Part shown: in pieces, positions 6,144 through 34,076 of the stretch
How positions within the stretch are numbered: position 1 is the first letter of the stretch
How the letters are laid out: each line of letters opens with the position of its first letter
Virus record (IMG/VR): IMGVR_UViG_3300046714_000526
Coordinates: 1 to 37,222 of that record
DNA length: 37,222 bases
Source: a virus
Direction: 5' to 3' (one strand)
Translations under genes and position numbers: made by a program
Notes under the pieces: generated by a model
What the model was told of the DNA's origin: nothing
The model's database searches: none
What the model saw: only the letters and a program-made list of their open reading frames with translations

Positions 6144-6875
6144 CTACCTCTCCAAACTTTCCTGGCTCTTGGAGAGCCACTCATGTGGGGTCTTGTCGTG
6201 CTTCGCGAAATTGCAGCCACGGCACGCCGGGACGAGGTTGCTCACCTCGTGCTGACCGCCTCGAGATAACGGGGTCATGTGGTCAACAGTATCCGCCAAA
6301 TTCGGGCAGTACGCACACCGGCCTTCGAACAAGGCCATCACCGCTCGATATTGCTTCACCGAGATGCCGGGCCCACTCATCTCCTGGCCATGGCGTCGGC
6401 GCTGCGCTGCGTTCTTGATCTCACGAAATCGATCATGGTGTTTCACCTGCCAGCGTCGAACCGCAGCAATTCGAGCATCACGATTCGTGGCATAGGCGGC
6501 ACGACCTGCACACGTTGTACAAAGGTTCCGGCGACCGCCTGTACATGTCGCATGCTTTGGAAAACGGGTCAGGATCTGCCATACAGCGCACTTGGCGCAT
6601 ACTTTACCTTCAACCCCATCGACCGTCGAAACAGGAAACTTCGCGTAACCCTTCCGAATCGGGTTGGCCTTCATCTTGGCGCTAAGCAAAAGCTTCTGCT
6701 CATCTGTGCAGCGCACCTCACGCTTCACACCAAGCCGAAGCGCACGGTGCCTGATTCCCGTCTTGTTTCGGTGTGGCAGCGCTGCCAAAATGGTGGCCCA
6801 CTCAGCACGCGGATAAAGCTCACGCACTACGCCGTCTTGCGCATCAGTCCACGGAAACGCAGAGGCTCCCAGCAT
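6144..6875 (-). CDS. HNH endonuclease (copy 1 of 3), upstream of the sheath
   Basis: 243 aa, ATG 6875 without a clear ribosome site. The N-terminal 50 residues look helix-turn-helix-like (WATILAALPHRNKTGIRHRA). CAKC and CTTC pairs follow near residues 91-120, then a basic linker. The C-terminal HNH nuclease domain shows CAYC, a VDHMTPLSRGG catalytic segment, an Asn (SNLVPAC), CRGCN and a PHEWL end. It probably cuts DNA as a free-standing homing nuclease. It stops five bases before the sheath start. The CxxC-F-CxxC plus HNH architecture is shared with the genes at 9226 and 10576, so the three look like one family spread through the neck module. It has an extra N-terminal DNA-binding-like part the others lack. 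Confidence 0.88.
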   Translation of the reverse strand: MLGASAFPWTDAQDGVVRELYPRAEWATILAALPHRNKTGIRHRALRLGVKREVRCTDEQKLLLSAKMKANPIRKGYAKFPVSTVDGVEGKVCAKCAVWQILTRFPKHATCTGGRRNLCTTCAGRAAYATNRDARIAAVRRWQVKHHDRFREIKNAAQRRRHGQEMSGPGISVKQYRAVMALFEGRCAYCPNLADTVDHMTPLSRGGQHEVSNLVPACRGCNFAKHDKTPHEWLSKSQESLER

Positions 6876-9225: not shown

Positions 9226-9858
9226 TTATCCTGTTTCTCTCCACTCTTCAGGAGTCCGGTTTCGCTTTGACGCGTTACACCCACGACAGGCCGGCGCTAG
9301 GTTTTCTAAAGCATTAGACCCACCTTTTGAAACGGGGATGACATGGTCAATTTCTACGGCAAGACCGGAACAGTACGCACACGGTCGCTTCAACAATGCC
9401 AGCAAGGTGTCCACCGGCGGCAATTCACCGGCAGCGCGCCGTGCGTGCCGATACCGCGCCTTGAGCAAGTTGTCACGCTCACGGTTTTCGGCTCGCCACT
9501 TCACCATGTACACACGCTGATACTCATTCACGGCAGCACTGTTCTCACGACGCCACCGCTTTTTCCGCATCCTATCTAGCTCTGGGTGTGCGAGCGCGTA
9601 GCGCTTCCCAGCAGCCAAACGCGAAGCCCTTGCCTCTTCCTCAGTCTGAACCCGCACAGGTGTCTCCAACCCCGCCTGACGGCGCTTGTACCGTTGCTGA
9701 TAAGCCGCGACTTTTTTGCGATTCGCCGCGCGGTAAGCGTACGTCTTCACCTTCGAACACTTCTTACAGATCGATTCATGACCATCGGCGGCGCGCTTGT
9801 GCGGATAAAACTGCTCCAACGGCAGCTCCAGCAGGCAGTGCTTGCACGCCTTGACCAT
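9226..9858 (-). CDS. HNH endonuclease (copy 2 of 3)
   Basis: 210 aa, ATG 9858. The N-terminal zinc-finger-like module has CKHC, then LEQFYPHKRAADG, then CKKC. A long Arg/Lys/Ala-rich helical linker of about 110 residues follows. The HNH nuclease domain has CAYC, IDHVIPVSKGG, ENLAPACRGCN and PEEWRE. It has the same architecture as the gene at 10576. It sits between two structural genes and overlaps nothing, as expected of a free-standing homing endonuclease that moved into the neck operon. Confidence 0.88.
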   Translation of the reverse strand: MVKACKHCLLELPLEQFYPHKRAADGHESICKKCSKVKTYAYRAANRKKVAAYQQRYKRRQAGLETPVRVQTEEEARASRLAAGKRYALAHPELDRMRKKRWRRENSAAVNEYQRVYMVKWRAENRERDNLLKARYRHARRAAGELPPVDTLLALLKRPCAYCSGLAVEIDHVIPVSKGGSNALENLAPACRGCNASKRNRTPEEWRETG

Positions 9859-10575: not shown

Positions 10576-11250
10576 CTAACACGCCAGGGCAAACACCCGA
10601 GGCAGGAACGCCGATATGGCCAAGTCCCGGATCGCCTCGATGTCCACGCCTGACTTCCGGGCCCAGGCCTCGGGGGACCGGGCATGTTTTCGGCAGTTGC
10701 ACCGCTTGCAGGCCGGCACCACGTTCCCGGGAGAGTGGAACCCGCCGAGGACGATCGGTGTCAGGTGGTCGATGGTCATCTTCTCGTCGCAGCGGCAATA
10801 CGCGCAGCGCTGCCCGAACTCGGCCAGCACGACCTCCCAGTGCTCCTGCCTGAAACCGCCGTCCTGGTCCCGCTCCCGGGCCATGCGGACCTGCTGGCGC
10901 ATGCGCTTCATGGCCTTGCCATGCTCGGTCTGCTGGTATGCCTTGCGGCGTGCCTTGATCCGCTCCGGGTGCTTGGCTTGGTAGCGCTGCACCGTGGCGA
11001 TCATGGCTTCCGGGTCCTCAGCGTATCGCCGACGTACGTATTCACGCGCGTCAGCGCGGCGTTTATCACGGTTCCGTTCCCGACCACGATCCTGCCAAAC
11101 CTTAACTTTTTCAGGATTCGCCTTCGCGTATGCTCGCGTCGCCGCGATGTGGCACCGTTTGCACGCGTGCTGGTACCCACTTGGCTGGGCCCTGTTGGTG
11201 TAGAAATCGCCGATCGGCTTGCTCACCTTACATGTCGTGCACAGCTTCAT
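10576..11250 (-). CDS. HNH endonuclease (copy 3 of 3), downstream of capsid
   Basis: 224 aa from ATG 11250 (MKLCTTCKVSKPIGDFYTNR); an upstream in-frame start would lie in the capsid terminator. The zinc-finger-like module has CTTC and CKRC with FYTN between. A highly basic linker follows, then the HNH domain: CAYC, IDHLTPIVLGGFHS, GNVVPACKRCN, PEAWARK. It lies behind the capsid terminator and in front of the hairpin-rich non-coding stretch, which suggests a mobile insertion. Closest relatives in the window are the genes at 9226 and 6144. Confidence 0.88.
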   Translation of the reverse strand: MKLCTTCKVSKPIGDFYTNRAQPSGYQHACKRCHIAATRAYAKANPEKVKVWQDRGRERNRDKRRADAREYVRRRYAEDPEAMIATVQRYQAKHPERIKARRKAYQQTEHGKAMKRMRQQVRMARERDQDGGFRQEHWEVVLAEFGQRCAYCRCDEKMTIDHLTPIVLGGFHSPGNVVPACKRCNCRKHARSPEAWARKSGVDIEAIRDLAISAFLPRVFALAC

Positions 11251-11283
11251 AGCCCGTGCTGCAAGCTTACGCCGAAGTCCATA

Positions 11284-11320
11284 AAGCAAAGCCCCAACCC
11301 GGGGACACCAGGTTGGGGCT
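11284..11320 (-). terminator. Intrinsic terminator after the capsid gene
   Basis: AGCCCCAACC (minus strand 11320..11311) pairs perfectly with GGTTGGGGCT (11299..11290) across an 11-base loop and is followed by TTGCTTTAT. It begins 23 bases past the capsid stop. On the plus strand the same hairpin is followed by CAAGTTTTG, so it may work in both directions. It would separate abundant capsid mRNA from the HNH and neck genes. Confidence 0.85.
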
Positions 11321-15189: not shown

Positions 15190-15462
15190 TTAGAAGTTCC
15201 TCTTCAGCAAATCACGCAGCTTGGCCGGCAGCTTCTTGGCCGCAGCCTTCGCCCAGGGCGCCTTCTCTTCCAGGCCGACGGGGCGCGGGATCTCGGCGAT
15301 CCTGCGGTTGCCCTTCTCGGCGTCCAGCTCCTCAGACTCGGGCCCGCGGCCGTGCTGGCTCCAGGCGTGGCACGCGGACTCGGGCTGGATCGGCTCATCA
15401 CCGCCGGGGCCAGGAGCGCGATCGACGGGCATGGAACCGGACGTGAACACGGCCTTGGCCAT
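15190..15462 (-). CDS. Small hypothetical protein with basic C-terminus
   Basis: 90 aa from ATG 15462; an alternative ATG at 15498 would add 12 residues and neither has a clear ribosome site. The N-terminus is Gly/Pro-rich. The C-terminus is a basic helix (PWAKAAAKKLPAKLRDLLKR) ending in NF. It follows two fibre-like genes. The helix may bind nucleic acid or virion partners, but nothing is recognised. Confidence 0.5.
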   Translation of the reverse strand: MAKAVFTSGSMPVDRAPGPGGDEPIQPESACHAWSQHGRGPESEELDAEKGNRRIAEIPRPVGLEEKAPWAKAAAKKLPAKLRDLLKRNF

Positions 15463-15506
15463 GCCACTAGGGTACAGCGGATGCAAGGATCGCGCCATGC
15501 CAAGGC

Positions 15507-16010
15507 TCAGAGCTGGATCGCGAGGCCAGAAGAGCCGAGCAGGATCGTGGTGGTCCCGGCGCTGCGCTGCGCGCGTAGCGTCAGCGTACCCGGCGTGGAC
15601 ACCGTGATGGACCCGGCCAGCCTGGTCGGGAACGGGCCACCGGTGGCCCGGTTGGCACTGTCCACCATGGCCGTGTTGATGGCCTGGTTGGACCGGAAGC
15701 TAGCGGACGTCGCGGTCGATGCCAACACCGCGCTCTGGGCCACCCTGGTCACGGTCCCGGTGTAGTTCACCGACACGCCCACGATCCCGTTAGAGCCGGC
15801 CTGGGTGATCAGCAGATCGAAGCTGAAAGCGTAGGTGCCAACCTTGAGCACGAACGACAGCCCGGCGACGTCCGCCAAGGTCGTCCCCGCCACCGTGGCC
15901 GTGGCGGCCAGCTCAGCGACGAGATCGTCCTGGCCGGTGAACAACCGGTCGGTCGCGGCGAGCTGGGAAAGCTTCGCGCCGTCCTCGACCAGCGGCTTCT
16001 GGATCGCCAC
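15507..16010 (-). CDS. Fibre-like / decoration protein
   Basis: 167 aa from GTG 16010, five bases after the previous stop; a longer frame upstream lies inside the neighbour. A short N-terminal helix (AKLSQLAATDRLFTGQDDLV) precedes a Thr/Ser/Gly-rich beta domain. This domain has the FVLKVGTYAFSFDLLIT type of strand pattern seen in small trimeric fibre or decoration domains. It lies in the surface cassette next to another fibre-like gene. Exact family not recognised. Confidence 0.6.
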   Translation of the reverse strand: MAIQKPLVEDGAKLSQLAATDRLFTGQDDLVAELAATATVAGTTLADVAGLSFVLKVGTYAFSFDLLITQAGSNGIVGVSVNYTGTVTRVAQSAVLASTATSASFRSNQAINTAMVDSANRATGGPFPTRLAGSITVSTPGTLTLRAQRSAGTTTILLGSSGLAIQL

Positions 16011-16015
16011 TGAGG

Positions 16016-16603
16016 TTAGGCCAGGGTGACCGGGGTTTGGATCATCGCGCTGATGCTCGTCGCCGAGGTGGCGACGCCGAGGCGCTGCAGGAGGTGACCC
16101 GCCGTCACGGGCTGGGTCTCCTGGCTGGCACCGGGGGTGACATCGCTGAGGTACTGCGTGGCCCCCGGGGTCTTTCCGCTGACAGCGGTGTCGACGCCCT
16201 CCAGGTACACGGTGCATGGCGCCCCGGAGCCGGCGCCGAGCAGGGTGAAGCCGTGGGCCTCGCGGCTGTTGCTGGCGTCGGCGTTCCGCGCCTTGGCCCC
16301 GCTCGAGTTGAAGATGTTGACCCAGGCTCCCGCGGCGATGACCTCGGACGTGGTGATCACGGCGGTGTCGGCAGCAACGCCCACGGGCATCATCGTGCTG
16401 TCCAGGCGCCCAGACGAGTCCAAGGCGGCGAGCTGGCCCGAGCTGGGAGCGCCAGCGCTGGTCTGCACCGCGTTGGTTACGGTCCGGTCCAGCACGCCGG
16501 CAGCGTTCACGTTGGGGATCTTACCGGCGTCGGCGACCCCGGCGCTGACCTCGACGGTTCGCTCGAAGTTCTGCGGATCCTTCAAGAATGTTCGATTAGC
16601 CAT
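16016..16603 (-). CDS. Fibre/spike-like virion protein
   Basis: 195 aa, ATG 16603. The N-terminal half contains GKIPNVNAAGVLDRTVTNAV and GQLAALDSSGRLDSTMMPVG, repeats of a 'G.L.A.D..GRLD.TM.P' type seen in phage tail fibres and decoration proteins. The C-terminal half is beta-rich, with QYLSDVTPGASQETQPVTAG. Probably a trimeric surface protein. The neighbouring genes (collagen-like, glycosyltransferase) support a virion-surface role. Confidence 0.68.
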   Translation of the reverse strand: MANRTFLKDPQNFERTVEVSAGVADAGKIPNVNAAGVLDRTVTNAVQTSAGAPSSGQLAALDSSGRLDSTMMPVGVAADTAVITTSEVIAAGAWVNIFNSSGAKARNADASNSREAHGFTLLGAGSGAPCTVYLEGVDTAVSGKTPGATQYLSDVTPGASQETQPVTAGHLLQRLGVATSATSISAMIQTPVTLA

Positions 16604-16618
16604 ATATGTATGTCTACC

Positions 16619-17047
16619 CTAGGCCAATTTGACCGGTTGTTCCACGCGGACCAACACGCGAGTTGCTGTCAATGCCACGCCGATCACCACGAAGTAAGCG
16701 CCGCTGTAACCGCCCTGTGTCAAGCGGGCATCATCGCCGAGCCACACGGATTGACCCGGCGCCCACGACCACGACGCGTCCTCGACCTCGTCGCCAGGCA
16801 CAGCGACGTTGATCTCGGTGCCTGGTGCGCCGGCTTGCCGCGCGATCCCGATCGGCCATGCCCAACCCGGAACGGGGTTCAACGCCGGCACCACGGCGCC
16901 GGTGCCTATCGTCATGAGCACGTCCAAAGCCCGGATCGTGGAGGCCGCGATCCGGGACGATCCCGGCGTTGACGGGACCTGCGCCGTGAACGACACGCTG
17001 GCGCGCAGCGCGCGGAGCTCGTTGAGCAGGTCGTTCTGCACGCCCAT
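16619..17047 (-). CDS. Virion surface protein with MGVxNDxLNELR tag
   Basis: 142 aa from ATG 17047; upstream in-frame codons belong to the glycosyltransferase gene. The N-terminus MGVQNDLLNELRALRAS is nearly identical to that of the collagen-like protein at 19772. A beta-rich domain follows, with aromatic clusters (WAWPIG, SWSWAPGQSVWLGDD) and a C-terminal YFVVIGVALTATRVLVRVEQ. The shared tag suggests both proteins dock on the same virion site. The C-terminal domain could be a receptor-binding or decoration domain; family not recognised. Confidence 0.65.
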   Translation of the reverse strand: MGVQNDLLNELRALRASVSFTAQVPSTPGSSRIAASTIRALDVLMTIGTGAVVPALNPVPGWAWPIGIARQAGAPGTEINVAVPGDEVEDASWSWAPGQSVWLGDDARLTQGGYSGAYFVVIGVALTATRVLVRVEQPVKLA

Positions 17048-17064
17048 ATGCGTGCAGGATACCG

Positions 17065-18955
17065 CTAATCCAGGCACTTGGCCGCGGCCAGCTTCTCTTC
17101 GGCCAGGCGTTGATTCTCGCGGATGCGGGCGCGCTGGTCCGGCGGCGCAACATCGAGCAGCCGAAAGCACTCCGCCGCGCACAGCTCATAGTTCCCGACC
17201 CAGTACGCCGCGATGGCTAGCTCGTCCGCGGCCTGCCACTCGTACACCGAGGCCTCGACGCATAGCCGATCCGGTGGCCGCGGGATGCAGGCCGCGTGCT
17301 GGGCGTACAGGTACGCCAAGGCATAGTCGCCGCGAAAGCGATGCCACCGGGCCAGCGCGACCAACGGCTCGGCGCGCTGTGGCCTGGCCTGCCAGGCCCG
17401 CAAGAACGCCGCCGGGACACGATCGTCAGCCACTCCGGAGCGCTCGTAGATCCTGGCGATCCGCAGCAAGGCTAGCCAGGCCTCCTCGTCGAACCCGCCC
17501 GGCAGCGCGGCGCGGCGCTCGTACGCCGTCACGGCGTCGCGGGTCAAGCCAGCCAGCTCCAAGCTCTGCGCCAAGTAATGCCACGCCCTGGCGTCTGTCG
17601 GGTCCTTCTCCAGCCTGGCCACAAGCTGCTTGGCCTCGCGAGCGTAGCGCTCCGTTGGTGGCTCCTTGCTCGCGGCACCATCGCGCAGGTTTCGGATCGC
17701 GGCCTGCTTGGCCAGGCTGCCAACGCTCGCCGCCGAAGTGTCAAGCAATTCGTGGACATCCCCGTTGTATTTCCACGGCAGGCCGAGGCGGACTACACGC
17801 ACCTTAGGGTACCGGAGTTCGCCCATGCGCTCTTCAACTTCCCAGACGTCGCTGGTCTCGATGCCGACGAAAGCCCCGGGCAAGACATCCTCCAGCACCT
17901 CGTCAGCGTCCAGGATCAGGCCATAGGTGCCATACGGCGCGGCCAGCGCCAAAGCTTCGCCGCGGTTGTGCCCGTAGCTCATCCACGGCCGGCGGTGCAA
18001 GGCGCCGGGCAGGTGGCCGAGCTTCTCCTGGATGATCCTTGGCGTGGTGGCGCCACGCCCGTTGAAGCTGATCGACCATGCACCGATATGTGGCAGCGCG
18101 GAATCGATGGCCCTGCCGATCGTGGCGTCCTCGTCCTGGCAAACCATGACCAGCACCAAGCGTGGTCTCCCCAGCGCCGCCGCGATCGTGGCGGTCATGC
18201 TCGGCACAGGCTCGCAGTGGTCCACGGCCGACTGCAGGTAGGCATCGTCACAGAGCTGTGCGCACCAATCCGCGAGGGCTTCGTACCCGCTCAGCACGGC
18301 CCCGGCATCGAATGCAACGTTGTCCTCGTCGCCAGCGCTGAACTCCGACACAACACGCCAGCCGTTGTGCAGGGCCCACAGCACGCGAGGGGCCTCAAAG
18401 ATCGCGGCGTCGTAGTAATGCACGTTCAGCGCGACCTTGGCACTCGCCATCAAGGCGTCACGCTCGGCGCCGTACACCCCGAAAGGCACGCGCAACACCT
18501 TGAGGCCACGGGTCTCAAGCCCATTCAGCACGGCCTCACGGCGTGCGTTGAGGGCACCAGCGAACGCGACGTCGTAGTTCGGGGTGAGAACCCGTGGCAT
18601 CTTGAGCTGGCTAGGGTGGAACCCCACGTGGACGATCGCCGCGGGCGGGCGCAACCCGACCTCGCCGTAACGGCTGGCGTTGATCGCGCTGTATTCCCAG
18701 ACCTCATGTCGGTTGAACAGCTCGACCACGTCCGGCGGGAACCACCCGGACCCGACCTGCTCCAGGTTGTAGACGATGGCGTCCGGCGGCAATTCCCAGC
18801 CCAGCGCCACGGCGTGCTGGGCCCCGAGCACGATCGCCCTGCGGCCTACCGGCGGCCGGCCAAGCACCACCAGCGAGTCATGGCCGAGCTCGCGCAGGCT
18901 GGCGTCGATCGACTCCGCCACCTCCCGGAACGCCTCGACGTGAGGGTTGGTGCCG

Positions 18956-18984
<29 letters not shown>
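17065..18984 (-). CDS. Two-domain glycosyltransferase with TPR-like tail
   Basis: 639 aa from ATG 18984, overlapping the methyltransferase gene by 29 bases. Residues 1-270 resemble a CgeB-like/GT1-type fold: YDVAFAGALNARREAVLNGL near 137-156, then ALNVHYYDAAIFEAPRVLWA near 185-204. Residues 275-415 resemble a GT2 domain, with a CQDED start, a DADE metal-binding motif near 359-362 and a VHE near 410-412. Residues 440-639 are helical and repeat-like (TPR-type), with ARAWHYLAQSLELAGLTRDA. Such fusions transfer sugars to proteins or polysaccharides. Neighbours are a methyltransferase and collagen-like and fibre-like virion genes, so virion glycosylation is plausible. Host-surface modification is the alternative. 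Donor and acceptor cannot be read from sequence. Confidence 0.8.
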
Positions 18985-20276
<1,292 letters not shown>

Positions 20277-20317: not shown

Positions 20318-21220
20318 TCAGCTCCGGCGGTACTTCCGGGCGCCGCGAAGCTCATATCCCAACACCCCTTGTCCGGGCAGCCACGGGACCAACACGGCTC
20401 TATCGTGCGGGCGGTTTGGGGGGTGATCCCAGGACCCGATCATCAGCGCCGAGCTGAACTTGCCGATCGCTGACGACGGCATGCGGAACTTGCCGCCAGG
20501 CTTGGCGAGCTGACCGTGCATCACCATGGAATCCGGAGCGACGCGGTTGTCCAGCGGGCGCCCCGTGGCGTCGTCCACCAGCTCGGTCCATCGCTTCATC
20601 AGGCCGGGCTCGCCAGCCCACAGGATGCTCATGCCGACGTCCTGGGCAGAATTAAAGGCCGCAGACGCCTCGGTGGCAGCAACTCGCTCGACCTTCCACC
20701 ACTGGTCCCCGGCAGCTTCCACGGCGGCATCGATCGCCTGGCCGACCCTAGCTTCGTCCACGGGAACCAAGGCCAAGCGCTCCCGGATCAGCGCCGCGGC
20801 ATCCGTGGCGTTCGTGATCATCACGCGGCGCCGCATCCCCTCGAAGTATGCCCGCTTGGCGGCCAAGGCCTGCGCCGCCGTCCTGGCGTCCTCAAGCACC
20901 GCCACGTTCAAGCCGAGGCGCCCGGCGGCACCGGCAACGACGCCCAACCCGTCGGCCAGGGTGTCAGCGGTGGACGCCACGATGACCTGGCCGACGCCAT
21001 GGAACACGCGGGTAACGGCGTGCTGGGCCGCGGTCACGATCTGGCCCAAGGTGGCCCGCGTCACGGGATCACGACCACCAGCGCGCACCGCGCGGGACAC
21101 CGCGCGGCCCATGGCCCCGATCCCGGCGTCGAAGGCCTGGCGGGCCGGCGCGATGTTTCGGCGCTCCGACCGGGACAGCGCTGCCAGCATCTCGCGCGGG
21201 CTGATCGGCTTGTTAGCCAC
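20318..21220 (-). CDS. Mu F-like minor head protein
   Basis: 300 aa from GTG 21220. The N-terminal 120 residues are helical. The C-terminal part shows the pattern of phage Mu F / SPP1 gp7 head-morphogenesis proteins. This comprises RVAATEASAAFNSAQDVGMS (the 'R-T/A-E-...-N' helix), KRWTELVDDATGRPLDNRVA, DSMVMHGQLAKPGGKF, and a PPNRPHDRAVLVPW end in place of the usual 'HPNCRC'. These proteins bind portal and capsid early in head assembly. Here the gene lies about 9.7 kb from the portal gene instead of next to it. Confidence 0.82.
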   Translation of the reverse strand: MANKPISPREMLAALSRSERRNIAPARQAFDAGIGAMGRAVSRAVRAGGRDPVTRATLGQIVTAAQHAVTRVFHGVGQVIVASTADTLADGLGVVAGAAGRLGLNVAVLEDARTAAQALAAKRAYFEGMRRRVMITNATDAAALIRERLALVPVDEARVGQAIDAAVEAAGDQWWKVERVAATEASAAFNSAQDVGMSILWAGEPGLMKRWTELVDDATGRPLDNRVAPDSMVMHGQLAKPGGKFRMPSSAIGKFSSALMIGSWDHPPNRPHDRAVLVPWLPGQGVLGYELRGARKYRRS

Positions 21221-21413
21221 GCCGTATCATGGCACGCGGGAAGCCTACGAAGCAGCGCCAGACCAACCACAACCCCAAGCGCCAAGCCAAACCACGCGAG
21301 ACCACGAAGCGAGTGATCTCGCGGCGGCCATGATAGACCGTGAAGCCACCGAGGTCGTTCTCGATGGCTGTCAGCTCGCGGAGGTCGTGCTCAACTTGGC
21401 GGAAACCACGCAC
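21213..21413 (-). CDS. Small membrane-anchored hypothetical protein
   Basis: 66 aa from GTG 21413, overlapping the minor head gene start by eight bases. The N-terminal helix is charged (FRQVEHDLRELTAIENDLGG). Residues about 42-60 form a hydrophobic stretch rich in Trp/Leu/Val (AWRLGLWLVWRCFVGFP), probably membrane-spanning. No ribosome site is clear. The protein is plausible but could be chance. Confidence 0.45.
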   Translation of the reverse strand: MRGFRQVEHDLRELTAIENDLGGFTVYHGRREITRFVVSRGLAWRLGLWLVWRCFVGFPRAMIRRG

Positions 21414-21438
21414 TAAACGCTAGCTTACGCGAACAGGT

Positions 21439-22203
21439 TTACAGCGCCTGGACCAATGCGAGGTCGGCGCCGCTCAGTTCGCGTTCGAACACACCCATAC
21501 CGGCAAGGTGGCCGCCGAACGGGAAGCCGCCGCCATCGAAGTCACCTAGGATGAGCGAGGTGTTGCCGAGCGCGAGGGCGCCGGCCGTCACCAGGTCCGG
21601 CGCTCCGATCGCCGTCGCTCCGCGATAGAGGCGCCACGTGTTCGCGTAACCACCGCCAACTGGCTTGGTCATCACCCACGTATTCCAGACATCCAGGCCC
21701 GTCAGGGCCGACCACTGCAGCGACGCGGAGCCTTCGAAGTTCCCCGTGTCCAGTGCGCCGGTTTCAAACGACACGCTCATTTCAGGGTCTCCCGAGGTGC
21801 CCATACTCAGTAGCGTGGGAAACGTGCTCAGGTCCGCCGTGCACTTCATCTTCCACACGATCGTCAGCGCCGGGTCCGCGGCGAGTCCCAGCGCATCACC
21901 GCGCGCAAAGGTGTTCGGTACGAGCGGATCGAGCACGAGCGCGATGTCGCTGCCCTCGAACGTGGTGCCAACGGGAGCACCGCTGAGCAGGTTCTTGCCG
22001 GCGCCGCTCTGGTCGTAGAGGTGGGTGGCGTCGTAGGGCAAGCCCGTGAACGTGGCCAGCTTCTGACGCGTCCACCAAAACGCACGCAGCGAGGCCTTCG
22101 CCGGAGCGCTCAGCCCATCGAGCGCAGCAACATGCACCGGAGCCAAGCCGCCCAAGCTCAACGGGAAGCCGTCGACGCCGACGATCGGGCCGAAGCCAGC
22201 CAT
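21439..22203 (-). CDS. LamG/concanavalin-like lectin-fold protein
   Basis: 254 aa from ATG 22203, in a TGATG overlap with the previous stop. The segments AFWWTRQKLATFTGLPYDAT, then HLYDQSGAGKNLL, TIVWKMKCTADLS and WNTWVMTKPVGGGYANTWRL fit a LamG / concanavalin A-like beta sandwich as found in phage tail and capsid adhesion proteins. LYDQSG with later DFDGGGFPFGGHLAGMGVFE matches the typical final strands. Such domains bind glycans. It probably is a virion adhesin encoded in the cargo region. Confidence 0.72.
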   Translation of the reverse strand: MAGFGPIVGVDGFPLSLGGLAPVHVAALDGLSAPAKASLRAFWWTRQKLATFTGLPYDATHLYDQSGAGKNLLSGAPVGTTFEGSDIALVLDPLVPNTFARGDALGLAADPALTIVWKMKCTADLSTFPTLLSMGTSGDPEMSVSFETGALDTGNFEGSASLQWSALTGLDVWNTWVMTKPVGGGYANTWRLYRGATAIGAPDLVTAGALALGNTSLILGDFDGGGFPFGGHLAGMGVFERELSGADLALVQAL

Positions 22204-22694
22204 CAATCCAGCTCCGCGGCCCAGATCTCGACCACGCTGCCGGAGGCCAGGTTGCCGCCCTGCGGCACCAGGTGGAACGCCATGTCCTGCAGCGGCAGAT
22301 CGAACGGCGCCGTCGTGAAGTCCTCGCCGTCACCGATGTCGCGCGCCGCGGGGGGCGTAGGCGGGGAGGGCCCTACAGGCTCCTGCCAATCAGTGCGGAC
22401 GTCCCCGTTGGCGTCGTGCTTGGCGTAGGCCAGCACGAGCCGGAGGTCGAAGCGACGCGAACTATCAGCGCCGGTGACCCGCATGATTCCGCTGAAGCCC
22501 TTGGTGCGGGCCTCAGAACCATCGCCCTCCGGGCGCAGCTTGGCATGCGCGATCGGGCTTCCGACCTCAACGTTGGGGGCTGAGGCCGGCTTCGGCGCGT
22601 TCGCCGCGGCGTCGCCATCCCACACCGTGCCGTCCCCGGCCCAACCACCGGCACCCGCCGTCACCGACCTGATCAATCGTAGGTTCCTGCTCAC
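22203..22694 (-). CDS. Hypothetical protein paired with LamG-like gene
   Basis: 163 aa from GTG 22694, in a GTGA overlap with the previous gene. Gly/Ala-rich N-terminus, then a beta-rich domain with RFDLRLVLAYAKHDANGDVR and a C-terminal AFHLVPQGGNLASGSVVEIW. Coupled by TGATG to the LamG-like gene, so the two are probably one functional unit on the virion. No family recognised. Confidence 0.62.
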   Translation of the reverse strand: MSRNLRLIRSVTAGAGGWAGDGTVWDGDAAANAPKPASAPNVEVGSPIAHAKLRPEGDGSEARTKGFSGIMRVTGADSSRRFDLRLVLAYAKHDANGDVRTDWQEPVGPSPPTPPAARDIGDGEDFTTAPFDLPLQDMAFHLVPQGGNLASGSVVEIWAAELD

Positions 22695-23185
22695 GGTGCG
22701 AGTGTAGCAGGCTGCGCCGCCGGGGGCGAAACCACGGCCCTGGCGCGCGCGATCGCTATCGCCGCTGTGTTCACGACCCCGGTCTGGCCCCAGATCTCAG
22801 GGTCGGTGTGGTCCTTGTCGCCGCCATTGCCGATGACCGTGGCGCCGCGGATCGCGTGGCTGAGCTCGTGGCACACCAGCCAAGGCTGGTCGGCACCGTA
22901 AGCCAGCATGACGTTGATCCGGGTGCCGTCGTCGTCCATTGTGGTGCAGCCCGTCAGCGGGGTGCCGCCGTGGCAGCGCTCGGTCACCTGGCGCGAGGAT
23001 CCGAAGGTCACCGTGGCGTTGCGCACGGCCTCGACGTTGCCCGGAGCGCCCTTGATCGCGGTCCAAGCGTCCAAGGTGGCCTGCAGCTCGTCGGGGTACA
23101 GGTCGGCGACGTGGGGCAGGCTGCCGATGGGCTCCGCCACGCAGCCGGCGGCCAGCGTTGCCAGGATCAGGGTCAGCGCTTTCAC
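22691..23185 (-). CDS. Zincin-like lipoprotein (HExxH)
   Basis: 164 aa from GTG 23185, in a GTGA overlap with its neighbour. Residues 1-15 form a lipoprotein signal (LTLILATLAAGC, lipobox LAAG-C). The mature part contains HELSH (HExxH zinc motif) with a candidate third ligand His 16 residues later (GDKDHTDPEIWG). A CHGGTPLTGC pair may form a disulphide. It is predicted to be exported and lipid-anchored and to act as a metalloprotease in the cell envelope. This is unusual phage cargo; it may alter the host surface or exclude other phages (inference). The zinc motif is clear, but catalytic activity is not shown. Confidence 0.75.
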   Translation of the reverse strand: MKALTLILATLAAGCVAEPIGSLPHVADLYPDELQATLDAWTAIKGAPGNVEAVRNATVTFGSSRQVTERCHGGTPLTGCTTMDDDGTRINVMLAYGADQPWLVCHELSHAIRGATVIGNGGDKDHTDPEIWGQTGVVNTAAIAIARARAVVSPPAAQPATLAP

Positions 23186-23514
23186 GACTTCACCTCGAGC
23201 CCGCTCAGGATGTCGTCGACGCGCTTGGCCATGTTCGCCTTGGCGACGTGGCGCTCGCCGATCCGGCAGAGCTCGGCCGCGGGATCCTTGCTGGGCAAGT
23301 CCTCGTCCACCGCTGCGAGCAAGGCGCCGGCACGGCGTCCGGCGTCCACGATGCCGGCAAGGTCGTCGGCATCGGCACCGAGGCCGATCAGGCGGATGAT
23401 CCGCATGTCCAGGGCTTCGCTGCGGTCGCTGCCGCCGAGGCGGATGGCAAGCTCCGCGGTCTCCGCGCTGACGATCAGCATCGCGATCTCGCGCACCAGT
23501 TGCTTGGTTTCCAT
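23182..23514 (-). CDS. Hypothetical helical protein
   Basis: 110 aa, ATG 23514, starting one base after the previous stop. Almost wholly helical: METKQLVREIAMLIVSAETA, then ADADDLAGIVDAGRRAGALL, and a C-terminal AKANMAKRVDDILSGLEVKS. Its C-terminal ERHVAKANMAKRVDDILSGL resembles the IARRNMARTLEGLK end of the upstream neighbour (23516), hinting at a common origin or shared interaction. Function unknown. Confidence 0.62.
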   Translation of the reverse strand: METKQLVREIAMLIVSAETAELAIRLGGSDRSEALDMRIIRLIGLGADADDLAGIVDAGRRAGALLAAVDEDLPSKDPAAELCRIGERHVAKANMAKRVDDILSGLEVKS

Positions 23515-23515
23515 G

Positions 23516-23791
23516 TTACTTCAGTCCTTCCAGGGTTCGGGCCATGTTGCGGCGCGCGATCTGCGCGCAGACTTCTGCGAGACGGTGGTGACCGAGCTGC
23601 TTCAGCGCCGCCACGCGGTCCATGTCGCGGTCGCCCAAGCGGGCGTCGATGATCACGGCGCGCGGGTCGTAGAAGGCGCCGCAGTCGCAGCGCTCCGGTA
23701 CTCGGTCGCCGTCGAGGACGCTCAGCCTGGCTTCGCAGTCCGGACACTCGCAGGTCGCGATCACGAACTCGGCGGCGTCTGGTCTGTCCAT
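23516..23791 (-). CDS. Zinc-ribbon hypothetical protein, first gene of minus operon
   Basis: 91 aa, ATG 23791. CECPDC near residue 14 and CDCG near 35 form a likely zinc ribbon. The C-terminal helix (AEVCAQIARRNMARTLEGLK) resembles that of the next gene. A sigma-54-like element lies 12 bases before the start codon and should drive this gene and the operon behind it (lipoprotein and LamG genes). Unknown function. Confidence 0.68.
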   Translation of the reverse strand: MDRPDAAEFVIATCECPDCEARLSVLDGDRVPERCDCGAFYDPRAVIIDARLGDRDMDRVAALKQLGHHRLAEVCAQIARRNMARTLEGLK

Positions 23792-23802
23792 GACTCTGGT
23801 AC

Positions 23803-23821
23803 TTGCACGTGGTGTGCCAAG
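23803..23821 (-). promoter_or_regulatory. Sigma-54-like element P1
   Basis: Minus strand CTTGGCACACCACGTGCAA. GG and GC dinucleotides are 12 bases apart, as in TGGCAC-N5-TTGCA (-24/-12). It ends 12 bases before the ATG at 23791 and matches P2, 215 bases away on the other strand, at 18 of 19 positions. Confidence 0.6.
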
Positions 23822-23979
23822 TCACGGTGCTTGGTTTATAGCCAATTTACCGCGGTTTACGCGGATCCGGGTATAGATCCTGACCCGAAAGTGCCGGTTT
23901 TCGTCACTATCGGTGCGCAAAACGTCACCGGGCAAGCCTGCGGAACTGCTAGCGATCCGGCTTGCGTACACTTCACGGC

Positions 23980-23995
23980 ATGACTCGATTGTCAT
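23980..23995. promoter_or_regulatory. Dyad operator/enhancer candidate
   Basis: ATGAC-N6-GTCAT inverted repeat. Its core, TGAC-N6-GTCA, ends exactly 42 bases before element P2. The equivalent TGAC-N6-GTCA in the other divergent region (33728..33741) is also 42 bases behind its promoter P3. It is a plausible site for an activator or repressor. Confidence 0.5.
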
Positions 23996-24036
23996 AGCAG
24001 CGCCGATCAGTGCTGCCGATCCTGGCTCAAGGCCGG

Positions 24037-24055
24037 CTTGGCACAGCACGTGCAA
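24037..24055 (+). promoter_or_regulatory. Sigma-54-like element P2
   Basis: CTTGGCACAGCACGTGCAA on the plus strand, 13 bases before the ATG at 24068. An AAGAGG ribosome site lies in between. Same spacing as P1, P3 and P4. Confidence 0.6.
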
Positions 24056-24067
24056 CAAGAGGCAGGC

Positions 24068-24328
24068 ATGACCAACACAATCAAGACCGCCCGATCGATC
24101 AAGATGGCCGAGAAGCGCGCCGCCAAGGCCGCCAGCAAGGCCCGCATCGAAGCCGCTCACGCCGAGGCCCAGGCCGTGGCAACCTCGGGCAAGTGCCCGC
24201 AGTGCGGCGCCGGCATTCGGCACAACCTGGCCCTGACCGGCTGGATCCAGTGCAAGCAGTACGGCGCGGTCGGGTTCCGCGCGGACGGCAACAAGGTTGA
24301 CTGCAGCTACCAAGGGTTCACCCAGTGA
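24068..24328 (+). CDS. Zinc-ribbon protein with basic helical N-terminus
   Basis: 86 aa from ATG 24068; a longer frame would start inside element P2. Residues 1-45 are a Lys/Arg/Ala-rich helix (KMAEKRAAKAASKARIEAAH). A zinc ribbon follows with CPQCG near 43, then a Cys at WIQCKQ and DCSYQG. It could bind nucleic acid. It is the first gene of the plus-strand group. Its stop overlaps the next start by GTGA. Function unknown. Confidence 0.72.
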   Translation: MTNTIKTARSIKMAEKRAAKAASKARIEAAHAEAQAVATSGKCPQCGAGIRHNLALTGWIQCKQYGAVGFRADGNKVDCSYQGFTQ

Positions 24329-24777
24329 TCATCACGGACTGCCTGGGCCGGGAGCGCGAGGTCACCCGGACCTGGCCCGATGGCTCCTACAACTGCCCGT
24401 TCTGTGACTACGCCGTGCCAGCAGCCGGCCTCGAGTTCGACCACGGGGTCAAAGACCTAGTGCCGGTCCACGTCGGCTGCCAGAACCCGGCATGCTTCGC
24501 CCGCGTCAACCCACCCTACCCGGCCGACAGGGCTCGTGAGGACCTCCGCTGCCACGAGGCCCAGCTCGCCGAGGAAGTCCGGCGGAAGCGCGAGGTCGAG
24601 TGGGTCAGGCAGGCTCAAAAGCAGCGCACCGAGGAGCACGCGGTGTGGCAAGCCTCACAGCGCGCGGAGTGTGTGACCCGGGGATGCTGCCTGAATTGCC
24701 TGTTCCAGCCCGGCTGGCAGCGCGTGAAGTTCGTCAAGCACAGGAAGGTGTGCCCAAGGCAGACCCGTGGCTTTTGA
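24325..24777 (+). CDS. Multi-cysteine zinc-binding hypothetical protein
   Basis: 150 aa from GTG 24325, in a GTGA overlap. CPFCD near residue 24 and CQNPAC near 52 form a first zinc knuckle. The middle is a charged coiled coil (AQLAEEVRRKREVEWVRQAQ). The C-terminus has RGCCLNC and a final CPR. An inverted repeat lies at the stop codon. Translational coupling with the previous zinc ribbon suggests joint action. Not recognised. Confidence 0.7.
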   Translation: MIITDCLGREREVTRTWPDGSYNCPFCDYAVPAAGLEFDHGVKDLVPVHVGCQNPACFARVNPPYPADRAREDLRCHEAQLAEEVRRKREVEWVRQAQKQRTEEHAVWQASQRAECVTRGCCLNCLFQPGWQRVKFVKHRKVCPRQTRGF

Positions 24778-25100
24778 ATTGGATCCTTCAATTCATCACC
24801 CCAACCACCCTGACTTCCCAATCCAACCAGGCTCCAGAAGATCAACAGGGAGTTACTCAAGGCCAATCCGTTCCTATCGGAACGTCTTGTCCTGCTGTGA
24901 TTTGGAAAACTTTTCTGTCAAGTACGCAAACTTTGCATAGCAAATCCTGCGAAGAAACCATGAATTCAGTGATCGAAGTTATGTCCCTAACTAATGGGGT
25001 ATGAAAAGTTTGCATAGGTGTGCGACTCTCCTCTACATGACTCGGCGATCTGGAAAGATAAGTGGAGTCCCGCTAAAGCAGTTAGTTTAGAATCATAGGC
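24778..25100. promoter_or_regulatory. AT-richer intergenic region with repeats
   Basis: 323 bases without a convincing gene and visibly richer in A and T than the rest. It includes a TTTGCATAG direct repeat at 24932..24940 and 25009..25017. A perfect CGTTCC-TATC-GGAACG hairpin lies near 24869..24884. At the upstream gene end, GAATTG-GATCCTT-CAATTC spans the left edge. A TTGCAT at 25010 followed 17 bases later by CTACAT is a possible weak promoter for the 25101 gene. It could hold regulator sites or an origin. Confidence 0.5.
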
Positions 25101-25514
25101 ATGTCCATGAAAAGAAAGTACATTACCGAAGACGGCAAGATCTGTGCGTACTGCGTGAAGTTCAAGATGTGTGATCCGCCGAGCGAGGTCGGCCGCGAGA
25201 TCACCGGCGTGTGCCTGGAGCGCAACGAGACACAGATCCGTGACGGGTGCTGCTACCGGTGGGCGAACCGGCTGCCACATGGCGTCACCATCGAAGACTT
25301 GGCAGCTGCCTACAAGGCGAACCCAAGGCCTGCGCCTGTACCGGTGCCGACGGCGCCACCGCGCGTTTCCTTGCCGGTCCTGAACCAGGGCGGCGTGACG
25401 GTCACCAAGCTGGCCTACATCGAGCCGGAGTGGGCCCGGACCTACGACGGCGGAGTATGGAGAGGTTCGGCCAAGCGCCGCGGCAAGGCCTCGCGCAAGG
25501 GCAAGCGGTCCTAG
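25101..25514 (+). CDS. Cysteine-rich hypothetical protein
   Basis: 137 aa from ATG 25101 (ATG 25107 is also possible: MSMKRKY). CAYC near residue 16, then CDPP, CLER and DGCCYRW: several cysteines suggest a metal site. The C-terminal half is Pro-rich, then ends in a basic tail (KRRGKASRKGKRS) that may bind nucleic acid. It converges with the HNH gene, overlapping it by four bases. Function unknown. Confidence 0.66.
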   Translation: MSMKRKYITEDGKICAYCVKFKMCDPPSEVGREITGVCLERNETQIRDGCCYRWANRLPHGVTIEDLAAAYKANPRPAPVPVPTAPPRVSLPVLNQGGVTVTKLAYIEPEWARTYDGGVWRGSAKRRGKASRKGKRS

Positions 25515-32524: not shown

Positions 32525-33190
32525 CTAGGAATCGAAGCCGAACACCAGCCGGATCTCCTCGGGCTTGCGGAACGGCAGCCCCTGGCAGGAAGTCAACGCG
32601 CGGGCCCACGTCAGGAAGCCTTGGCAGGACTCTGCCAGGGGTTCCATCCACTCATGCTTGGCGTAGTGCCAGTTGAGACCGTCGAGGCAGTGGTGTCGTA
32701 CCGGGCCCATCTCGGCCTCCAGCGCGTCCGAGACCTCGGGGATCTCGCCGTCGCAGCGGTCCAAGATCAGCCGCTTCAGGTCGGCCACCGAGCACGTCAC
32801 GACGCTGCCACCGCTAATGTCGTACCTGTATCTTGATGGCTCATCCGTTTTCTTGCGCATCATGTCCAACACCACCGCGGCGTTGACCCATGCGCTGTTC
32901 GTGACGCGCCACTGATCCCAGTCGTGGTTCAGGACCTCGGCCAGGGTCAACCAGCTCGGGGTGTGGTCTATGCCGTGCTCGGCCCAAGCCTTGGTCTCCT
33001 CGGCCATGTCCTTGGGCAAGCCGCGGGGCGCCGCGATCGGGGCCAAGCCGTAGCTGCGCCGCACGCCGGCCAGGGCGCCGAACACGCTGTAGTTCCGTTC
33101 ACCATACGCGGCCCGCTCGTCGATCACGAGCTCCCACTTGTTGGCGTTGTGGTCGTACGCCTCGACCACCATGTGGATGTCGCAGTCCAA
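32525..33190 (-). CDS. CDIH-family phage protein
   Basis: 221 aa. Start TTG 33190 was chosen because the protein then begins MDCDIHMVVEAY, the N-terminus known from a widespread phage family of unknown function that starts M-x-CDIH. A GTG at 33202 is possible. A centre with KWELVIDERAAYGERNYSVF and later SWLTLAEVLNHDWDQW matches that family (RNY...FA...R and S.L.l.El...dW). It stops 20 bases before the portal start. Role unknown. Confidence 0.75.
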   Translation of the reverse strand: MDCDIHMVVEAYDHNANKWELVIDERAAYGERNYSVFGALAGVRRSYGLAPIAAPRGLPKDMAEETKAWAEHGIDHTPSWLTLAEVLNHDWDQWRVTNSAWVNAAVVLDMMRKKTDEPSRYRYDISGGSVVTCSVADLKRLILDRCDGEIPEVSDALEAEMGPVRHHCLDGLNWHYAKHEWMEPLAESCQGFLTWARALTSCQGLPFRKPEEIRLVFGFDS

Positions 33191-33192
33191 TG

Positions 33193-33378
33193 CTATTCGC
33201 ACCCCGGGCAGCATCCCCGCCGCACGGCCATCCCGCAGCCCAGGCAGCGCGCTGCGGTGGCGTAGGCCGCGATCGCGTCGGCGGCCACGGCGTTCATCCG
33301 CTCCACCGACTGCGGCCTGGTGGCGGCGACCAGGGCGGCCTGGAGGTTGGGGTGCGAGGGTTTTGGTTGGTTGGTCAT
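33193..33378 (-). CDS. Small zinc-knuckle protein
   Basis: 61 aa, ATG 33378, one base after the previous stop. The N-terminal part is helical (NLQAALVAATRPQSVERMNA). The C-terminus has CLGCG and CCPGC ten residues apart, ending CCPGCE, a likely zinc knuckle. It belongs to the operon behind element P3. Function unknown. Confidence 0.62.
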   Translation of the reverse strand: MTNQPKPSHPNLQAALVAATRPQSVERMNAVAADAIAAYATAARCLGCGMAVRRGCCPGCE

Positions 33379-33379
33379 C

Positions 33380-33655
33380 CTAGATCTCTCCGGTCTCGTT
33401 GCAGGCGTTGATGAAGTTGGTCTCGGCGACGTCGCACGCGACCTGCGCGAGCTTGAACGCTGCCTTAGCAGCCAAGAACTCAGCGTCGCCGATCTCGCGG
33501 GCGTGATAGGCCTTGCTGGTCACGGTGTACTTACGCGAGGCAGCGCGGAAGGTCTCCAGCGCGGCGTCGTACGCGACGGCGTGCGCGGTCGGAGCTTTGG
33601 GTGCCACGGCGGGGTCAGCATCGATCGTGCCGTCGAGGTTGATTTGCTTGCTCAT
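33380..33655 (-). CDS. Hypothetical helical protein, first gene after P3
   Basis: 91 aa, ATG 33655. Short Asp-rich N-terminus (MSKQINLDGTIDADPAVAPK), then three helices with AYDAALETFRAASRKYTVTS and FKLAQVACDVAETNFINACN. A sigma-54-like element lies 12 bases before the start. It heads the operon that leads to the portal gene. Unknown function. Confidence 0.66.
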   Translation of the reverse strand: MSKQINLDGTIDADPAVAPKAPTAHAVAYDAALETFRAASRKYTVTSKAYHAREIGDAEFLAAKAAFKLAQVACDVAETNFINACNETGEI

Positions 33656-33666
33656 GCGCCTAGATA

Positions 33667-33685
33667 ATGCACACCGCGTGCCAAG
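33667..33685 (-). promoter_or_regulatory. Sigma-54-like element P3
   Basis: Minus strand CTTGGCACGCGGTGTGCAT, ending 12 bases before the ATG at 33655. It shares CTTGGCAC-N5-RTGCA with P1, P2 and P4. Confidence 0.6.
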
Positions 33686-33727
33686 CCGGGATCAGGCTTG
33701 AAGCCGGCGGCACCGCAACGCCAGCTC

Positions 33728-33741
33728 TGACATCCCTGTCA
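33728..33741. promoter_or_regulatory. Dyad operator/enhancer candidate
   Basis: TGACATCCCTGTCA, an inverted TGAC-N6-GTCA repeat, 42 bases behind element P3. It has the same core and the same distance as the dyad behind P2. Confidence 0.5.
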
Positions 33742-33890
33742 TGGTCAACACTGTGCGCAACCCGAAAGCTTAATGGTTCCGCGGAGCTAGGCGGTGACAA
33801 TTCGCGCGCGCAAGGTGACGGAAAGTGGCACTTTCTGCTTATGGCTGGCAGCGCTCGCGACGAAACCATTGCGGATTCTGGCGCTGAAGG

Positions 33891-33909
33891 CTTGGCACGG
33901 GCTATGCAA
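33891..33909 (+). promoter_or_regulatory. Sigma-54-like element P4
   Basis: CTTGGCACGGGCTATGCAA on the plus strand, ending 12 bases before the ATG at 33921. The following GTACCAG is identical to that after P1, so similarity extends into the leader. Confidence 0.6.
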
Positions 33910-33920
33910 GTACCAGGAAC

Positions 33921-34076
33921 ATGACCAAGCCAACCAAGACCTTCATCGTGTCCGGGCAGCACCGGGTCTCGGGCAAGCTTACAGCCGTGTCCAGGCCTGA
34001 TGCTAAGGCTGCCAACACCGCCGCCAAGCAACTCATGTCCGCCGGCTTCATCAAGCTGCAGGTCGTGTTCGTGTGA
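33921..34076 (+). CDS. 51-aa plus-strand protein under P4
   Basis: ATG 33921 to TGA 34076. Predicted beta-beta-alpha-beta pattern: TFIVSGQH, KLTAVSRP, helix KAANTAAKQLMSAGF and a final KLQVVFV strand. This is the look of a compact small fold. The ribosome site is weak (AGGA two bases before ATG), which fits a very short or leaderless mRNA from P4. It converges with the terminase gene. Function unknown. Confidence 0.55.
   Translation: MTKPTKTFIVSGQHRVSGKLTAVSRPDAKAANTAAKQLMSAGFIKLQVVFV

Follow-up and report, generated by a model that had tools for sequence, protein, structure and literature searches.

A duplicated divergent cassette of sigma-54-like elements beside cargo genes of a contractile-tailed phage

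The two divergent intergenic gaps of phage record IMGVR_UViG_3300046714_000526 are inverted paralogues of each other, each containing an outward-facing pair of elements with the shape of a -24/-12 promoter, and they probably represent a duplicated divergent cassette of the sigma-54 type that serves two islands of cargo genes. The window, by which we mean the whole stretch of DNA analysed, comprises all 37,222 bases of the virus record, which probably covers only part of the phage's genome. Matches to PHROGs families for a tail tape measure protein, sheath, major head protein, portal and large terminase mark it as belonging to a contractile-tailed phage. Nearly all its genes lie on the minus strand, and in the gene set called from ORFs and GC3 divergent strand switches occur at the two gaps only, as the first-pass annotation of this DNA had also found. 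Three genes in the structural cluster (6144-6875, 9226-9858 and 10576-11289, all on the minus strand) resemble HNH endonucleases, the first with a Pfam HNH match; the matches of all three in one relative (G001) overlap, near 42.4-43.0 kb, which suggests that they are homing endonucleases of a single family.

Four elements in two inverted paralogous gaps

The bipartite element CTTGGCAC-N5-RTGCA, or CTTGGCACNNNNNRTGCA, has exactly four exact matches in the 37,222 bases, arranged as two outward-facing pairs and designated P1 to P4 (Table 1). Shuffled sequences contain on average 0.01 matches, none of 100 shuffles reaches four, and the backwards control pattern gave no match when scanned over the complete record. 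Since CTTGGCAC alone occurs nine times in the window, it is the full bipartite element that constitutes the specific feature. The first-pass annotation had described four copies only, all within the two divergent gaps, and an exact scan of the full record returned the same four and no others. It had also placed each copy 12 bases before its ATG; counted from the last base of the 18-mer this is correct for P1, P3 and P4, while for P2 the distance is 13. The repetition of TGCAAGTACCAG directly after both P1 and P4, likewise described there, was seen again, and P2 and P3 have CCGGCTTGGCAC in common.

Table 1. Coordinates of the control cassettes, their elements and the adjoining genes
Feature	Position	Strand	Remarks
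Divergent control cassette 1 (whole gap)	23792..24067		from paralogy alignment
Divergent control cassette 2 (whole gap)	33656..33920		inverted paralogue of cassette 1
P1, sigma-54-like element CTTGGCACACCACGTGCA	23804..23821	-	predicted start 23793; ATG 23791; paralogue of P4
P2, sigma-54-like element CTTGGCACAGCACGTGCA	24037..24054	+	predicted start 24065; ATG 24068; paralogue of P3
P3, sigma-54-like -24/-12 element CTTGGCACGCGGTGTGCA	33668..33685	-	reads left; predicted start 33657; ATG 33655
P4, sigma-54-like element CTTGGCACGGGCTATGCA	33891..33908	+	reads right; predicted start 33919; ATG 33921
Dyad TGACTCGATTGTCA, candidate activator/regulator site	23981..23994		TGAC-N6-GTCA; cassette 1
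Dyad TGACATCCCTGTCA, candidate activator/regulator site	33728..33741		TGAC-N6-GTCA; aligns with dyad of cassette 1
Perfect palindrome GAAAGTGGCACTTTC	33821..33835		cassette 2
First gene after P1	23516..23791	-	91 aa, Cys-rich
Genes leftward of the preceding	23182-23514, 22691-23185, 22203-22694, 21439-22206		P1 side
Genes after P2	24068-24328, 24325-24777, 25101-25514	+	first two Cys-rich; no homologues in relatives
First gene after P3	33380..33655	-	91 aa; no family, no homologue found
Second gene after P3	32525..33214	-	229 aa, phrog_10141; 'CDIH' of first-pass annotation
Single small gene after P4	33921..34076	+	51 aa; no homologue found

The paralogy of the two whole gaps is new and was absent from the first-pass annotation. 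In reverse complement, gap 1 can be aligned with gap 2 along its length, with 167 of 290 aligned bases identical (58%). The inner parts of the gaps, without the elements, still give an alignment score of 43, whereas the highest score among 971 random window segments was 32 and none of 500 shuffles reached 43. Because the gaps are inverted paralogues, with CCGGCTTGGCAC and TGCAAGTACCAG shared, P3 corresponds to P2 and P4 to P1. The homology between the cassettes ends at about the start codons, and the flanking genes differ. A profile search for the cassette across the window and all fetched loci recovered these two copies only, and blastn of both cassettes against cultured phages gave no match; a search for close relatives by means of the sequence downstream of P1 and P4 gave six matches, none with a divergent partner element upstream.

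Several blocks between the promoters are kept in both cassettes. The dyad TGAC-N6-GTCA, which occurs in the window only at its two aligned positions in the cassettes (0.44 copies expected), is the best-conserved of them as a candidate activator site. For sigma-54, an upstream activator site is usually a dyad about 80-200 bases away, and the predicted starts place this one about 77-81 bases upstream for P2 and P3 and 180-195 bases upstream for P1 and P4. The other shared blocks are TGTRCGCAA, GTTCCGC and GTGACG.AAA..GGCACTTTC, of which the last, GGCACTTTC with the preceding GTGACG.AAA of cassette 2, is found in cassette 1 around 23887-23910. GAAAGTG, once considered as the sole activator site, was replaced by the dyad after the paralogy alignment, in which GGCACTTTC was also found to be conserved.

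Cargo genes beside the cassettes and their absence from relatives

Alignment of the capsid protein yielded 81 relatives, of which 80 are viral contigs and one is a contig of a bacterial MAG; their fetched flanks reach the portal gene in 28 cases and the terminase gene in seven. Structural genes to either side of the gaps are represented in the relatives by homologues, which always share the strand of the capsid gene; the genes adjoining the gaps themselves (21213-25514 and 32525-34076) have no homologue in any of these 81, which share the structural genes. The distance between terminase and portal is -100 to 671 bases in the relatives against about 1,480 in the window. The 229-aa phrog_10141 protein is distantly homologous to proteins of Caulobacter jumbo phages and others, and its gene at 32525 had no match in 40 whole related records. 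A third block without homologues in the relatives lies at 15190-19675. Among the cargo, the protein encoded at 22691-23185 (minus strand) begins like a lipoprotein (LAAGC) and contains the motif HELSH, with no Pfam or PHROG match, and to judge by these motifs is possibly a secreted zinc metalloprotease. A search for the host by way of prophages produced a capsid homologue (61%) on one contig of an Armatimonadetes MAG, which is insufficient to name the host.

Conservation of the element across the phage family was considered and rejected: TGGCACN6TGCW has two matches in 1.12 Mb of relatives against seven for the reversed control, so that there is no excess, and the exact element has no match in 39 viral records and is present only in the bacterial MAG. 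Conservation upstream of orthologous genes cannot be found, because the orthologues themselves are absent from the relatives. Since both the flanking genes and any excess of the element are lacking there, the cassettes belong to lineage-specific cargo islands, having either arrived with this cargo or being in its service.

This bears on the targets of the presumed switch, among which the first-pass annotation had counted the portal gene. The first genes behind the elements are cargo without homologues in the 81 relatives, and the relatives possess portal, terminase and capsid genes without the elements, leaving read-through as the only possible route to control of the portal. As judged from these comparisons, the cassettes are not a general switch, whether for the portal or for the remaining structural genes. 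Transcription from P1 and P3 may continue into structural genes, which the relatives carry without such elements.

Resemblance to sigma-54 promoters and competing interpretations

Promoters recognised by sigma-54 have GG at -24 and GC at -12 with ten bases between them, and the base before TGC is usually T. They require an AAA+ enhancer-binding protein, and remain silent until this activator senses its signal. The shape of the present element, TTGGCAC-N6-TGCA, is that of such a -24/-12 promoter, and all four copies carry the sigma-54 invariants (TGGCAC, the GC of TGCA and the exact GG-N10-GC spacing) and point into genes. Under a hand-weighted sigma-54 consensus P1 to P4 are the top four sites of the window, at 24-25 of a possible 26. 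With a matrix derived from 32 mapped E. coli sites (PMC4591121), they rank 2, 3, 7 and 8 among about 74,000 window positions. Their scores of 13.2-15.0 fall within the range of the E. coli sites themselves, for which leave-one-out scoring gives 13.5 as the lower quartile and 15.8 as the median. Single sites at this score are not rare, and single matrix scores are not significant, because about 1.3 such sites occur by chance per shuffled genome; on the sequence evidence, the weight of the sigma-54 reading lies in four near-identical copies in the right places and the right orientation. The best single match in the window under the E. coli matrix (16.6) is a different site, ATGGCGCGATCCTTGCA at 15482-15498 on the minus strand, with an in-frame ATG (MAKAVF...) about 20 bases further on, within the 15190-19675 block; it could be a fifth promoter or could be due to chance.

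The elements thus share with RpoN-dependent -24/-12 promoters the TGGCAC-N5-(N)TGC core, the exact spacing and candidate dyads 77-195 bases upstream, but differ from them in three respects. In all four, TGC is preceded by G or A rather than the usual T, which counts against sigma-54. Secondly, in E. coli the sigma-54 start lies 19 bases downstream of the motif centre (PMC4591121), and when this rule is applied to P1-P4 the predicted leaders are 2, 3, 2 and 2 bases, so that the transcripts would be almost leaderless. The listed E. coli sigma-54 promoters mostly have leaders of 18 or more bases (PMC4591121); leaders as short as 2-3 bases are out of the ordinary for this factor and form the main oddity of the reading. 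Bacteria do have leaderless AUG messages, for example 171 in Sinorhizobium meliloti (PMC3616915). Thirdly, no activator has been identified: no sigma-54 activator domain was found in the window, itself probably a genome fragment, and 36 relatives gave three partial matches over some 50 positions, one of them barely above the cut-off and none convincing, which are probably other AAA+ proteins. A sigma-54 DNA-binding domain was found in none of 25 records, while the control genomes did match; the lack of a match to T7-type RNA polymerase in 25 records shows little, since the control likewise gave none. The activator would be either the host's or encoded in the missing phage sequence. The sigma-54 reading is further weakened by the close relatives, in which the element is not in use.

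A rather unlikely alternative, although one with arguments in its favour, is that the element is the site of a phage-encoded regulator or late-transcription factor, whether as operator or as a promoter not of the sigma-54 type, and that its likeness to -24/-12 sequences is convergent. The partial dyad symmetry of the core (GCAC-N5-GTGC in P1-P3), the fixed place beside the ATG and the absence of the element from relatives, as for a phage-specific factor, are all in keeping with this. However, P4 lacks the symmetry but retains the asymmetric TGGCAC...TGCA core, and all four copies are oriented towards the gene, which is unexpected for a symmetric operator; a symmetric repressor operator should have the dyad in every copy and free orientation, and this is not what is found. 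In addition, the sigma-54 spacing match is exact, and no regulator gene was found in the window.

It is less probable again that the cassette is chiefly a recombination boundary, a repeated linker that aids the exchange of cargo blocks, with any promoter role secondary. Two inverted copies do lie in non-conserved islands, and their homology does stop near the start codons, but conservation is strongest in the promoter-like elements and the dyads, and homologous exchange cannot be frequent between copies that have diverged to an overall identity of 58%. Such a role would be compatible with the sigma-54 reading and does not exclude it.

An RNA-level element in the 5' leaders, either a hairpin or a translational operator, is very improbable: a short GCAC/GTGC stem is possible in P1-P3, 12-13 bases ahead of the ATG, but in P4 the stem is not retained (three pairs, then a mismatch) although the sequence is, the four folds differ, and the hairpin was rejected on this ground. 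Least credible of all are promoters of the sigma-70 type with TTGGCA as the -35 hexamer, which agrees with TTGACA at five of six positions: no -10 hexamer occurs at 16-18 bases, the conserved TGCA half is left unexplained, a sigma-70 scan found nothing in the P1/P2 region and a single site near P3/P4, on the plus strand and overlapping the P3 start region, and with -10 hexamers absent and the gaps devoid of sigma-70 promoters for these genes this interpretation was discarded.

Proposed mechanism and parallels in other phages

On the preferred sigma-54 reading, P1-P4 would be -24/-12 core promoters read by the host sigma-54 RNA polymerase, and each gap would act as an enhancer-dependent two-way cassette, in which outward promoters surround a shared activator-binding region with the dyad TGAC-N6-GTCA, and then the further conserved blocks, as candidate activator site. 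The inverted cassette copies, one per cargo island and set among structural genes, would be switched on together by one activator, the host's or one from the missing part of the phage, and transcription would begin 2-3 bases before the ATG to give nearly leaderless messages. The complete scenario, in which the phage duplicated the whole sigma-54 cassette, the accessory genes are co-induced by the activator signal and the nearly leaderless transcripts are translated, is put forward tentatively. The first-pass proposal of one regulator for two pairs of operons is well supported as regards shared control, by the same element, orientation and spacing and by the paralogous gaps; but the element is better read as a sigma-54 core promoter than as the operator of that regulator, which would instead bind the conserved blocks between the promoters.

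Use of sigma-54 by phages is known but rare, and a literature search gave mainly Pseudomonas phage YuA (Mesyanzhinovviridae), described in PMC5053324 as strictly dependent on host sigma-54. The YuA record resembles the window in that three -24/-12 promoters are annotated in the structural region, among structural genes. It differs in that the best consensus matches in the three annotated stretches reach 15.5-19 of 26, against 24-25 in the window; moreover YuA is unrelated and without paired divergent cassettes, and its promoters adjoin core structural genes, whereas those of the window adjoin cargo. The layout of the cassettes recurs in viral contig G008 (65% GC; locus L026, 5776-6081), where outward TTGGCACGGGCCATGCA and GTGGCACGGGCCATGCA, two elements of nearly the same sequence, surround central repeated GGACACTTGTC palindromes of the type CGGACACTTGTCCG, a clean second case of a divergent region that resembles an enhancer arrangement. 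This locus differs in that its genes are not homologous to those of the window, and in that the elements stand about 26-28 bases from the ATG, with a normal ribosome site.

Arrays of near-perfect sigma-54-like TGGCACG-N4-TTGCA motifs were also observed in unrelated viral contigs (L013 418-911, L015 10878-11132, L016 4821-5120, L018 5715-6004 and L023 10960-11384). The motifs often form face-to-face inverted pairs with their -12 ends abutting, for example TTGGCACACTTATTGCATATGCAAATTCCATGCCAA, which is repeated in L018. Such arrays make little sense as promoters, and are possibly sigma-54 decoys or dyad sites of another protein.

Outward element pairs 196-226 bases apart occur in 19 viral-contig stretches, compared with three for the reversed pattern, and this enrichment suggests that sigma-54 use by phages may be commoner than the one literature case found would indicate. 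If the proposal for the present phage is true, it would show how accessory genes can be coupled to the physiology of the host while the core lytic programme is left untouched.
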